Positions 15,193-35,328 of a DNA stretch of 64,000 nt are shown here, piece by piece. The notes under the pieces are model-generated. The model had not been told where the DNA came from. It searched no databases and saw only the letters and a list, made by a program, of their open reading frames with translations. This DNA is from Lysobacter terrestris (GTDB taxonomy: Bacteria > Pseudomonadota > Gammaproteobacteria > Xanthomonadales > Xanthomonadaceae), in the NCBI RefSeq assembly GCF_014489475.1, contig NZ_CP060820.1, positions 1,690,001 through 1,754,000 on the forward strand, written 5' to 3'. Both the position numbers and the translations under genes were made by a program. How positions within the stretch are numbered: position 1 is the first letter of the stretch; every line of letters begins with the position of its first letter.

Positions 15193-15822
15193 ATGGCCAA
15201 GCTCTACTTCTACTACTCGGCGATGAACGCCGGTAAGACCACCACGCTGCTGCAATCCGCCCACAACTACCGCGAGCGCGGCATGCGCGTGCTGATCCTG
15301 ACGCCGCGGCTGGACCACCGCGCCGGCAGCGGCACGGTCGCCTCGCGCATCGGCCTGACGGCGGAGGGGCATGCATTCGAGCGCGCCGACGACCTGGAGC
15401 GCGTGATCCGCGCCGACATCGCCGCGCACGGCAAGCTCGACTGCGTGCTGGTCGACGAGGCGCAGTTCCTCGCCAAGGCGCAGGTGTGGCAGCTCAGCGA
15501 GGTGGTGGATGCGCTGCGCATCCCGGTGCTCTGCTACGGCCTGCGCACCGACTTCCGCGGCGAGCTGTTCGAAGGCAGCCAGTACCTGCTGGCGTGGGCC
15601 GACGAGCTCAACGAGATCAAGACGATCTGCCACAGCGGCAAGAAGGCGACGATGACGGTGCGGGTGGACGATGCCGGCCGCGCGGTGCAACAGGGGCCGC
15701 AGGTCGAGATCGGCGGCAACGAGCGCTACGTCTCGGTGTCGCGCGCGGAGTTCAAGAAGGTGATGCGCGGCGAAAGCACGGTCGAGGGCCAGCCGGAACC
15801 GCAACAGCCTCCGTTGCTGTAG
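15193..15822 (+). CDS. tdk: Thymidine kinase (TK1 type)
   Basis: 209-residue enzyme phosphorylating thymidine in the salvage pathway. Walker A is SAMNAGKTT (residues 9-17), Walker B/catalytic region LVDEAQFL, then [20 protein letters not shown] and the thymidine-binding [10 protein letters not shown] near the C-terminus. Odd: of the four structural zinc ligands in E. coli Tdk (CxC...CxxH), only the first Cys (TICHSGKK) is visible; CHS replaces CFC and VSRAEF replaces VCRKH. The fold is otherwise intact and full length, so the enzyme is probably active without the zinc site. Confidence 0.93.
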
Positions 15823-18790: not shown

Positions 18791-19354
18791 TCAGGAATCC
18801 TTCAACGACGCCAGCAGGAACATCCGCGCCTTCTGCCAGTCGCGGCGGATGCTGCGCTCGGAACGCTCGAGCAGGGCGGCGATTTCCAGTTCGGACAGGC
18901 CGGCGAAGTAACGCAGCTCCACCACCTGGGCCAGCTTCTGGTCGACCGCGGCGAGCTTGGTGAGCGCCACATCCAGGCCGAGCGTTTCCTCGTCCAGGCG
19001 CAGGCCACCCTCGACGTCCTCGGGCAGGTCGGTGACGCGGTGCAGGTCGCCGCCGCGCTTCTGCGCCAGGCGCTGGCGGGCGTAGTCGACCACCACGCTG
19101 CGCATGGCCGAGGCGGCGTAGGCGAAGAAGTGCGCGCGGTCGTCGAAGTGGGCTTCGCGCCGCCCGATCAACTTGAGGTAGGCCTCGTGCACCAGTGCGG
19201 TGGCGTCGAGGGTCTGCCCGTGCTGGCCGGCGAGCTGGCGCCGGGCCATCGAGTGCAGTTCGTTGTAGAGGCGCGCGAGCACGTTGTCGAGCGCGCCGCG
19301 ATCGCCGCCACGGGCCGCATCCAGCAGCAAGGTGATGTCCGCACTATCCGCCAT
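18791..19354 (-). CDS. ECF-family RNA polymerase sigma factor (EcfK/ECF43-like)
   Basis: 187-residue sigma factor with the sigma2 region (LYNELHSMARRQLAGQ, ALVHEAYLKL, FFAYAASAMRSVVVDYARQR) and the sigma4 helix-turn-helix (VVELRYFAGLSELEIAALLERSERSIRRDWQKARMFL). It belongs to the TIGR02999-type ECF group that is usually encoded with a Ser/Thr kinase, not an anti-sigma factor. The kinase gene follows directly. ATG at 19354 gives the standard MADSADITLLLDAARGGD start; the frame is open further upstream but that part is mutM antisense. Confidence 0.9.
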   Translation of the reverse strand: MADSADITLLLDAARGGDRGALDNVLARLYNELHSMARRQLAGQHGQTLDATALVHEAYLKLIGRREAHFDDRAHFFAYAASAMRSVVVDYARQRLAQKRGGDLHRVTDLPEDVEGGLRLDEETLGLDVALTKLAAVDQKLAQVVELRYFAGLSELEIAALLERSERSIRRDWQKARMFLLASLKDS

Positions 19355-19449
19355 GTGGTACCCGACCCCCGGAGGTGAAGCCGAATATAAACCCAATCGG
19401 CAACGGCGGAGCGGGCCGTTTCGCACGGCACGCGCCGGGCGATGCGCCG

Positions 19450-20268
19450 CTACTTCTGGCAATGCGGGCACCAGACCGTAGCCCGCTGCCCGATCGCGGC
19501 CTGCTTCAGGGCCCGCCCGCAGCGCGGGCAGGGTTCGCCGCCGCGGCCGTAGGCCGAGAGCTCGAGTTCGAAGTAGCCGGGCTGGCCGTCCGGGTTGATG
19601 TAATCGCGCAGCGTGGTGCCGCCGCGTTCGATCGCGTAGGCGAGGATGCGTTTCACCGCGGCCGCAAGCAGCGCATAGCGATCGCGTGACACCTTGCCGG
19701 CCGCGCGCAGCGGCGAGATGCCGGCTTCGAACAGCGCCTCGGCGGCATAGATGTTGCCCACGCCGACCACGATCTTCTGGTCCATCAGGAAGGTCTTCAC
19801 CGGCGCCTTGCGCCCGCGGCTCAGGGCGAACAGGTAGTCGCCGCCGAACGCGTCCGACAGCGGCTCGGGGCCGAGGTCGCGCAGCAGCTCGTGGGTTGCC
19901 CCGGGCGGCTGCCACAGCAGGCAGCCGAACCGGCGCGGGTCGGTGAAACGCAGCACGCGGCGGGACCCGTCATCCAGCTCGATGTCGACATGGTCGTGCG
20001 CCTTCACCGGCGTCGCCGCCGGCAGCACGCGCAGGCTGCCGGACATGCCCAGGTGCAGCAGGGCGCTGCCGGCCTGGGTGTCGAGCAGCAGGTACTTCGC
20101 GCGCCGGCGCACCTGCTCGATGCGCTGCCCGGGCAGGAGTTCGGCGACTTCGCGTGGAATCGGCCAGCGCAGGTCCGGCCGGCGCAGGACCACGCCGGTG
20201 ATCCGGCGTCCCTCCACATGCGGTGCGAGGCCGCGGCGGGTGGTTTCGACTTCGGGCAGTTCGGGCAC
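19450..20268 (-). CDS. mutM: Formamidopyrimidine-DNA glycosylase (Fpg/MutM)
   Basis: 272-residue base excision repair enzyme removing 8-oxoguanine and cutting the abasic site. The N-terminal MPELPEVET provides the catalytic Pro2 and Glu3, Lys60-region (LLHLGMSG follows), the H2TH domain ([19 protein letters not shown]), and the C-terminal zinc finger CPRC...CPHC with the intercalating DYINPDG. Because Pro2 must be the mature N-terminus, the start must be the GTG at 20268; it directly abuts an in-frame TGA. GAGG about 8 bases upstream can act as ribosome-binding site. Upstream are two more copies of the first nine codons (see the repeat). Confidence 0.95.
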
Positions 20269-20373
20269 TCAGGACCTCGGCTTGCGTGCATCCAGGGCCG
20301 CGGCGGCGGCGCAGGGCGTGCGGCGTCGGAGTGTCGCTCGCGGCGCGGTTTCGACTTCGGGCAGTTCGGGCAC
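20269..20373 (-). CDS. Possible 34-aa leader peptide from duplicated mutM start (inner copy)
   Basis: GTG at 20373 preceded by GAGG, encoding the same 34-residue peptide with one substitution (RRRTP for RRRAP), and stopping at a TGA immediately before the mutM GTG (TGAGTG). The arrangement would allow termination-reinitiation coupling into mutM. Whether it is translated cannot be seen from sequence. Confidence 0.35.
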   Translation of the reverse strand: MPELPEVETAPRATLRRRTPCAAAAALDARKPRS

Positions 20374-20478
20374 TCAGGACCTCGGCTTGCGTGCATCCAG
20401 GGCCGCGGCGGCGGCGCAGGGCGCGCGGCGTCGGAGTGTCGCTCGCGGCGCGGTTTCGACTTCGGGCAGTTCGGGCAT
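20374..20478 (-). CDS. Possible 34-aa leader peptide from duplicated mutM start (outer copy)
   Basis: ATG at 20478 starts [18 protein letters not shown]..., an Ala/Arg-rich peptide ending in ARKPRS at a TGA that abuts the GTG of the next copy. It is the only copy with ATG. No good ribosome-binding site is visible upstream, so translation is uncertain; it may simply be a by-product of the duplication. Confidence 0.3.
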   Translation of the reverse strand: MPELPEVETAPRATLRRRAPCAAAAALDARKPRS

Positions 20479-20679
20479 GACGCTAGCTTACGGAGTCGAT
20501 CGCGCGACGACCCCATTCAGTTTGCCGACCTTGCCGAACGCGCCCCCAATCCCCATCACAGTACCGTTCCATACAGGGGCGAACGTCATGCGGGGGTGGC
20601 AGAATCCCGCGTGGGACCGCGTCCTTCCACCCACCCACTTCGCCGCGGCGAAGGCGGGCGCGTCCGCTCCGGAGTTGTC

Positions 20680-21867
20680 ATGTCCGCATTGCTCGATTTC
20701 CTCGCCGGTGGCCTGTTGCAGGCCGGCTGGGTTGCCATCGCGATCTATTTCCTGGTCGCCACCCAGCTCACCATCTTCTCGGTGACGCTGTACCTGCACC
20801 GTTCGCAGGCGCATCGCGCCGTCGACTTTCATCCGGTGCTCGCGCACGTGTTCCGCTTCTGGACCTGGTTGTCGACCTCGATGATCACCAAGGAGTGGGC
20901 GGCGATCCACCGCAAGCACCACGCCAAGTGCGAGACCGAAGAGGATCCGCACAGCCCGCAGGTCAAGGGCATCAAGACCGTGTTCTGGCGCGGCGTCGAG
21001 CTGTACAAGGAAGCGCGCAACGATCGCGAGTCGATCGAGAAGTACGGCAAGGGCTGCCCGGACGACTGGATCGAGCGCCACCTGTACACGCCGCACGCCA
21101 CCCTCGGCCCGACGTTGTACCTGTTCATCAGCTTCGCCCTGTTCGGCTTCGTCGGCGTCGCGCTGTGGGCGATCCAGATGGCGTGGATTCCGTTCTGGGC
21201 CGCGGGCGTGGTCAACGGCCTCGGCCACTGGTGGGGCTACCGCAATTTCGAAAGCGCCGATACCTCGACCAACCTGTCGCCGTGGGGCGTGTGGATCGGC
21301 GGCGAGGAGCTGCACAACAACCACCACGCGTTCCCGTCGTCGGCGAAGTTCGCGCTGCGCAAGTTCGAACTCGACATCGGCTGGGTTGCGATCCGTGCGT
21401 TCGAGAAGGTCGGCCTGGCCAAGGTGCTGCGCGTCGCACCGACGCTCGACGTGCGCCCCAACATCGCCATGCCCGACGGCGAAACCATGAAGGCGTTGCT
21501 GGCGATCCGCTTCCAGGCGATGACCGACTATTACCGCAACGTCACCCTGCCGGCGCTGCGCGAAACCAAGTTCAAGCTGCCGCGCAAGCTGCGCCAGGGC
21601 CTGGCCGACGGCGGCCGCTGGCTCGACGACGACAAGCGCGCGCGCCTGCAGGCATGGCTGGCCGAGCGTCCGCGCATGGCGCAGCTGGCCGAATTCCGCG
21701 CCAAGCTGTCGCAGGTGCTCGACGAGCGCTCGCACGACGCGCAGGCCACCCTCGCCAAGCTGCAGGCGTGGTGCGCCGAAGCCGAGGCCTCGGGCAATGC
21801 CGCGCTGCAGGCGTTCTCGATGCGCATGAAGGGCTACGCACTGGCCCCGGCGCGCATCGGCGCGTGA
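20680..21867 (+). CDS. Acyl-CoA/acyl-lipid delta-9 type fatty acid desaturase
   Basis: 395-residue membrane desaturase. The three histidine boxes for the di-iron centre are HRSQAH, HRKHHA (IHRKHHAKC) and HNNHHAF (EELHNNHHAFPSS), with hydrophobic segments around residues 10-35, 60-75, 150-175 and 180-200. The C-terminal 120 residues are helical and charged, longer than the minimal desaturase and typical of the proteobacterial DesA-like type. It introduces a double bond into long-chain acyl groups, adjusting membrane fluidity. The ATG at 20680 starts just before the first hydrophobic segment. Upstream about 200 bp contains no obvious gene. Confidence 0.93.
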   Translation: MSALLDFLAGGLLQAGWVAIAIYFLVATQLTIFSVTLYLHRSQAHRAVDFHPVLAHVFRFWTWLSTSMITKEWAAIHRKHHAKCETEEDPHSPQVKGIKTVFWRGVELYKEARNDRESIEKYGKGCPDDWIERHLYTPHATLGPTLYLFISFALFGFVGVALWAIQMAWIPFWAAGVVNGLGHWWGYRNFESADTSTNLSPWGVWIGGEELHNNHHAFPSSAKFALRKFELDIGWVAIRAFEKVGLAKVLRVAPTLDVRPNIAMPDGETMKALLAIRFQAMTDYYRNVTLPALRETKFKLPRKLRQGLADGGRWLDDDKRARLQAWLAERPRMAQLAEFRAKLSQVLDERSHDAQATLAKLQAWCAEAEASGNAALQAFSMRMKGYALAPARIGA

Positions 21868-35034: not shown

Positions 35035-35310
35035 TCGACCCTTGCAGCTTCGACCGTCGACCTCCCGGCGCCGCGGCTCGACCCCGACGGGTCGGCGCTT
35101 CGACCCGGAAGGGGCCAGCCGTGGACCTCCAAGCGCGGACCTTCGACCCATCAAGGTCGAAGCCTGGACCCCTCGGGGTCCAAGGTTGGACCTCCAAGCT
35201 CGGCGCTTCGACCCGGAGAGGTCGGCGGCTGGACCCCGACAGCTCCAACGCCGGAGCTCCGGGCTCGGCGCTTCGACCTGCCGAGGTCGGAGCGTGGAGC
35301 CGGGAAGGTG
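35035..35310. repeat. Degenerate ~65-bp tandem repeat with internal palindromes
   Basis: Units begin with CTTCGACC at 35048, 35098, 35141, 35206 and 35271; the last three are exactly 65 bp apart and clearly related (each ends ..AGCTCGGCG before the next). Within units there are short dyads such as CTTCGACC...GGTCGAAG (35141-35162) and TGGACCCC-TC-GGGGTCCA (35165-35182). The region stays open in several frames on both strands because of its composition, but nothing argues for coding. Not CRISPR: units are divergent and spacers are absent. Confidence 0.7.
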
Positions 35311-35328
35311 CAACGGCGGACGCCACGC

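Follow-up and report, generated by a model that had tools for sequence, protein, structure and literature searches.

The mutM gene of Lysobacter terrestris is preceded by two further copies of its own beginning, which raises the question of which of the three starts occupies the original place and which one leads to the protein. The window, namely the whole stretch of 64,000 nucleotides that was analysed, belongs to a genome assembled as a single contig of 3,148,097 bases with a completeness of 100. Tandem Repeats Finder places a tandem repeat at 20242-20477 of the window, with a period of 105, 2.2 copies, 99% matches and a score of 465, and the runner-up among its 31 rows scores 186. Read along the minus strand, the order is ATG (20478), 34 codons and TGA, then GTG (20373), 34 codons and TGA, and finally the GTG (20268) of mutM (Table 1). 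The repeat unit of 105 bp is composed of 27 nt of the mutM start and a 78-bp spacer, here called U, and the array consists of three starts and two spacers. Codons 2-9 are the same in all three starts. Comparison of the 105-nt units shows two differences, one at position 55 (G/A) and the other in the first letter of their start codons (A/G). A TGA stop directly precedes GTG 20373 and GTG 20268, and each GTG has GAGG 6 nt on its 5' side, whereas the outer ATG has none. The frame of MutM starts 210 nt downstream of the outer ATG, at a GTG led by a Shine-Dalgarno (SD) sequence. The first copy of U has a G+C content of 79% and contains no TA dinucleotide.

Table 1. Features at the start of mutM (positions count from the first letter of the window).
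Feature	Position	Strand	Remark
Predicted -10 box TAAGCT	20485..20490	-	ends 6 nt before outer ATG; A of ATG is the predicted +1
Outer mutM start copy (ATG + codons 2-9)	20452..20478	-	predicted 5'-terminal leaderless start; no SD
Predicted 5'-terminal uORF 1 (repeat unit 1)	20374..20478	-	34 codons, ATG...TGA
Spacer U, first copy	20374..20451	-	78 bp
GAGG, SD-like	20380..20383	-	6 nt before GTG 20373
Middle mutM start copy (GTG)	20347..20373	-	codons 2-9 identical
Predicted uORF 2 (repeat unit 2)	20269..20373	-	34 codons, GTG...TGA
Spacer U, second copy	20269..20346	-	homologous to the one U in Root494 (80 bp)
GAGG, SD of mutM	20275..20278	-	6 nt before GTG 20268; CGAGGTCCTGA identical in Root494
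Inner copy, true mutM start (GTG + codons 2-9)	20242..20268	-	start of MutM frame
mutM/fpg	19450..20268	-	272 aa, GTG start; Pro2, Glu3 present

The product of the innermost start is an ordinary MutM of full length. It exceeds the cut-offs of two NCBIfam Fpg equivalogs, NF002211 (E 1.2e-104, 349.7 bits against a cut-off of 212, residues 1-272) and TIGR00577 (E 6.8e-87, 291.3 bits against 203.3, residues 1-271). It has PE at residues 2-3 and a CPRC...CPHC tail, the C-terminal Cys zinc finger, as an Fpg/MutM glycosylase should, and we take Pro2-Glu3 and this Cys tail to be its functional residues. MutM guards against oxidative mutation. The divergent neighbour of mutM, from 20680, is a gene for a DesA-family desaturase. 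The original prediction had described the first nine mutM codons as present three times in frame with a 105-bp period, both outer copies as opening 34-codon frames that end in TGA just before the next GTG, and each inner copy as having its own GAGG, and direct reading of the minus strand agrees with it on every one of these points. Its view that the repeat is compatible with a normal enzyme also holds, since the innermost GTG with its own SD gives the complete protein. Its count of one mismatch between copies holds for the units without their start codons; with these included, 2 of the 105 positions differ.

The outer ATG has to be seen against the mutM genes of the family. By its usual geometry, a -10 box that ends 6 nt before the start codon puts the start of transcription on the A of ATG. 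Bacterial leaderless genes are marked by TAnnnT at a distance of about 12 bp on the 5' side of the start (PMC3160421). For 104 distinct family mutM starts, which are not a random sample, the sequence upstream was scanned for TAnnnT. In 33 of them, the hexamer ends at a distance of exactly 6 nt from the start codon, against about 0.4 expected per gap from a background of 0.0038 per position at gaps 25-59. It lies at gap 7 in 3 of these starts, at gaps 5 and 8 in one each, and at any other gap from 0 to 23 in at most one. Consistently, T occupies -12 in 42 of the 104 starts, A occupies -11 in 64 and T occupies -7 in 58, and the looser NAnnnT is found at gap 6 in 54. SD 4-mers are not enriched at gaps 4-9 (5 of 104, compared with 3 to 8 in seven control bands), and the start codon is ATG in 99 genes and GTG in 5. 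This pattern suggests that mutM is normally leaderless in the family, and ancestrally so by the look of it, with a -10 box so near to ATG that the start codon should form the 5' end of the mRNA. Both TAnnnT at gaps 5-9 and an SD 4-mer are absent from 61 of the 104 starts, and NAnnnT at gap 6 covers at most 21 of these, so that the leaderless label is not established for every relative. A second peak of NAnnnT, unexplained, is seen at gap 11 in 17 of the 104 starts.

The outer ATG of the window has the family arrangement, TAAGCT-AGCGTC-ATG, with TAAGCT at gap 6 and no SD. The same TAAGCT-N6-ATG is present at the outer ATG of Lysobacter sp. Root494 and in the genomes G026, G007 and G058. The GTG of MutM does not have it, because the 210-nt leader in front of it contains no TA dinucleotide, and GAGG lies 6 nt upstream of it instead. 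A consensus scan gives no sigma-70 promoter with a -35 box, which tells against the interpretation that follows. Since the outer copy keeps the promoter/start spacing of the family, the outer ATG appears to stand in the ancestral place, and the MutM frame would be the part that has been displaced.

The genus comparison covers three genomes, namely that of the window, Root494 (G002, contig NZ_LMFH01000001.1) and G001, and the MutM proteins of the latter two are 89% and 84% identical to that of the window, respectively. In Root494, the promoter block, a single U and mutM are colinear with those of the window, and mutM starts with GTG behind GAGGTCCTGA. Its leader is present in one copy of 85 nt with the same GAGG-TCCTGA-GTG, and its start is not repeated: the outer ATG is followed by two letters (ATGCC) and then by the spacer, without the outer 22 nt of the mutM start and without a second unit. 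This ATG opens a reading frame of 21 codons, whose stop leaves 19 nt up to the GTG. As the distance of 85 nt from ATG to GTG is not divisible by 3, the two are in different frames. The U sequences of the window and Root494 are 76% identical by BLAST, and their alignment score of 69 is reached by none of 200 shuffles (22.1 +/- 4.1). Identical aligned positions number 62 of 76 in U, 143 of 172 in the promoter and 694 of 813 in mutM, and U thus appears about as diverged as the promoter and gene that surround it. The last 11 nt of U, CGAGGTCCTGA, which contain the SD, are unchanged between the two. Because no TA dinucleotide, and hence no TAnnnT, occurs inside the 210-nt leader of the window or the 85 nt of Root494, transcription of mutM should come from the promoter before the outer ATG in both. 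In G001, BLAST finds no match to U, and ATG-mutM stands close behind TAACCT at gap 7. The intergenic stretch up to the ATG of G001 is, by eye, longer than that of Root494 up to its outer ATG, and with TAACCT at gap 7, this longer stretch and three genomes, a history other than that of a displaced leaderless start is conceivable.

The array is rare. An exact degenerate pattern of the mutM start, which would miss diverged copies, matches 384 of 395 family genomes and 379 of 397 order genomes, two overlapping sets of which the second alone contains 269 genomes (G395-G663). Two or more close matches on one contig are found in these sets only in the window genome (G000), which has three, and in the draft genome G158, and the 269 additional order genomes contain no tandem case. 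Therefore, the idea that such an array is common in relatives is rejected within the reach of this pattern. With the 237-bp array as query against 297 family genomes, Root494 alone, among the matches listed outside the window genome, has one that spans the whole spacer and the mutM start. G158 has four matches, forming two pairs 100 bp apart on two contigs (C5, L063 347-447; C4, L059 441-541). Its unit consists of about 70 bp of upstream DNA and about the first ten mutM codons, and the first copy opens a frame of 35 codons, the TGA of which overlaps the second start (ATGCCTGA). Since the borders of this unit are unlike those in the window, the duplication in G158 looks independent, in a draft with a duplicated contig where one copy has N and the mutM frame of the other ends after 52 codons. 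Two matches on different contigs occur in G022, G026, G159, G310 and G571, which are either redundant or mixed assemblies or carry true second copies of mutM.

These observations lead to the following history. In the ancestor that the window organism shares with Root494, about 80 bp, namely U ending with GAGGTCCTGA before GTG, would have come to lie between the leaderless ATG and the gene. MutM would then have been produced from the SD-led GTG, and the old ATG would have stayed at the predicted 5' end of the mRNA, where it opens a short upstream frame. In the lineage of the window, the outer site would later have received a copy of the 27-nt mutM start, or recombination would have kept its sequence alike. 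Exchange or slippage between direct repeats would also have doubled the 105-bp unit to give ATG-U-GTG-U-GTG-mutM. The outer start of the window is identical to its own mutM start at 26 of 27 positions, whereas the mutM start of Root494 matches this outer start at 23 of 27, suggesting that the outer copy arose after the divergence from Root494 or has been homogenised by recombination. No genome other than that of the window shows the doubled 105-bp unit. Thus, the order of events was probably a step from leaderless to SD-led shared with Root494, followed by copying of the start upstream and doubling of the unit in the window lineage. The shared ancestor may have had start-U-start, in which case Root494 lost 22 bp, or U alone, in which case the window lineage gained the outer start. 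We regard the account as a whole, including the expression from the SD-led GTG described below, as fairly likely on the strength of these sequence comparisons. The recent duplication proposed in the original prediction is right in that the amplification is probably recent. Comparison with relatives, which the prediction had proposed as a check, shows at the same time that the leader U itself is shared with Root494. The prediction is mistaken or silent on two matters: the 78-bp spacer predates the repeat, because Root494 has U once without a repeated start, and the outer ATG does not represent one more SD-led start, because it has no SD and carries the leaderless mutM spacing of the family.

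Alignments of U to promoter regions, mutM bodies, the desaturase gene and the genome itself reveal no donor. Comparison with the 200 nt before the outer ATG gives scores reached by 8 of 200 shuffles for the U of the window and by 10 of 200 for that of Root494, and comparison of the window U with the 300 nt upstream of G001 mutM and with the plus strand of the whole G001 locus gives 5 and 13 of 200, respectively. The nominal matches to promoter regions vanish with a second scoring, local and end-anchored, where the score is attained by no fewer than 138 of 500 shuffles, so that a decayed copy of the mutM promoter is rejected. Within 18800-19800, the window U gives a gapped alignment downstream of mutM, at about 19103-19163, with a score of 34 that none of 200 shuffles reaches. 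On the whole minus strand, 12 of 40 shuffles reach this score, and the match is taken as chance. Some BLAST matches run from the start past codon 9, and so U was also compared with mutM codons 10-39. The score is reached by 73 of 200 shuffles with the window body and by 71 of 200 with the U of Root494, the means and maxima against 49 distinct family mutM bodies are reached by 61 to 141 of 200, and only 23 of 78 positions agree in register, and a copy of these codons is rejected. A copy of the desaturase gene is not supported by alignment against shuffles. A multi-copy element is likewise rejected, as searches of the own genome give only short G+C-rich matches besides the array.

The expression of mutM may be envisaged as follows. 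A single promoter would lie in front of the outer ATG, and the predicted 5'-terminal AUG could be read as a leaderless upstream open reading frame (uORF) of 34 codons. The UGA of uORF 1 would abut the SD-led GUG of uORF 2, and the UGA of uORF 2 would abut the SD-led GUG of mutM, so that synthesis of MutM could rely on direct SD initiation, on termination-reinitiation from the uORFs or on both. Translation of the uORFs with reinitiation is plausible, and direct SD initiation with little or no input from the two minigenes seems at least as likely. There is the possibility that the minigenes are by-products.

A neutral array is compatible with the proposed history, because neutrality concerns what the array does and not how it arose. 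A recent small tandem duplication would have taken place in a leader equipped with an SD, MutM would be initiated directly at GTG 20268, and the upstream copies would be idle. The MutM frame and its SD stay intact at any number of units, U diverges about as its surroundings do, and a second, apparently independent duplication of the mutM start, with a 100-bp unit and other borders, is seen in the draft genome G158. However, the outer 27 nt are intact, and a 5'-terminal AUG can attract ribosomes (PMC4965119), so that full neutrality is not assured. We consider idle copies a serious possibility, although one that stops a little short of being probable.

Selection of the two 34-codon frames as leader minigenes, through which coupled termination-reinitiation would tune MutM, is rather unlikely; it too would be compatible with the proposed history. 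A TGA adjoins each GTG with GAGG 6 nt upstream, and a short distance between stop and start and an SD both help reinitiation in E. coli (PMC2268962). However, chance is excluded for the repeat itself and not for the open frames, which are what composition would lead one to expect: 4109 of 5000 dinucleotide shuffles of the 75 nt of U that precede TGA also stay open for 25 codons. Moreover, the arrangement is kept in neither relative, the frame of Root494 leaving a gap of 19 nt before GTG and G001 having no leader. Folds of the leader are no stronger than those of shuffles (z +0.37 to +1.69), with the start regions partly paired in the minimum-energy folds, and Rfam gives no match up to E 1. Of the two tandem leader minigenes of the original prediction, coupling at the two TGA|GTG junctions survives as possible, but selection for the minigenes is not supported by the frame of Root494 and the shuffles.

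Repeats in mutL act as tandem-repeat switches in mutator genes. The mutM array resembles them in that direct repeats at a gene for DNA repair could allow units to be gained or lost, and it may be speculated that its 27-bp direct repeats form a self-preserving switch in which 105-bp leader units come and go, MutM always stays intact and zero units correspond to the ancestral leaderless mutM. If so, cells would shuttle between leaderless expression and SD-led, uORF-damped expression of MutM, and these modes would differ in their sensitivity to conditions that favour leaderless translation. In contrast to the mutL repeats, the units of the array are located outside the MutM frame, and MutM stays whole in every predicted allele. 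With one genome per species, no variation in unit number is seen. We regard such a switch as highly doubtful. An assembly artefact with one unit too many is very improbable, because the genome is complete in a single contig, the units differ at two positions, and U with SD and GTG occurs independently in Root494, so that the leader itself is real and only the unit count could be artefactual, even though the window genome is the sole source of the second unit and the collections searched contain no second strain of the species.

In E. coli, 5'-terminal upstream AUGs (uAUGs) on SD-led mRNAs bind 70S ribosomes (Beck, Fleming and Janssen 2016, PMC4965119), and destruction of the uAUG in thirteen genes affected many of them little, while some gained and some lost downstream expression. 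The locus of the window resembles these mRNAs in its predicted +1 AUG, in a uORF that can be read as a leaderless cistron and in a main gene with its own leader, SD and start, the last being found also in Root494 (GAGG-TCCTGA-GTG). Unlike in E. coli, the uAUG would be the ancestral start of mutM itself together with a copy of its first nine codons, and the uORF is doubled in tandem with its stop abutting the next start. It is these features, the own ancestral start as uAUG, the copied start and the tandem-doubled uORF, that distinguish the locus from the known cases. With TA-led leaderless genes (PMC3160421) it shares TAnnnT about 12 bp upstream, at the outer ATG as at 33 of 104 family starts, but the MutM frame is SD-led from a GTG 210 nt downstream. 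With translationally coupled cistrons (PMC2268962) it shares a stop directly before an SD-led start, twice, but the upstream frames are short copies of a gene start without a known product, and Root494 lacks the abutment. Searches of an open-licence library give no earlier report of a leaderless mutM or of a tandem duplication of its start or leader, and by title they give nothing on mutM for leaderless genes in Xanthomonadaceae and no transcript map of the genus for leaderless genes with Xanthomonas.

Within one genus, a conserved leaderless gene seems to have turned SD-led in nature, with the old start still at the predicted tip of the mRNA, and this displaced start is of greater interest than the minigenes. 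The gene is available in three natural states, namely without U in G001, with a single U in Root494 and with two units in the window organism, so that the switch from leaderless to SD-led expression can be tested at a single gene. Should the uORFs matter, the amount of an enzyme that protects against oxidative mutation would depend on them.

Several minor observations concern the surroundings. The intergenic region between mutM and the desaturase gene (20480-20680) has blocks such as TGTGATGGGG and GTTC(A/G)GCAAGGT in common with Root494, and these are partly present also in G001, by eye. The blocks shared with Root494 are possibly a promoter or operator of the desaturase gene. The window contains a second, more diverged tandem array at 35122-35320, with a 65-bp period and 2.7-2.8 copies. 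Among the 352 ATGs of the window that open at least 150 codons, TAnnnT is found at gap 6 in 3 and at gaps 0-5 or 7-17 in none, a count that lends support to the history proposed above. The three, at 15193, 22357 and 61103, all on the plus strand, have TAnnnT exactly 6 nt upstream, which suggests that they are further leaderless genes of this genome.
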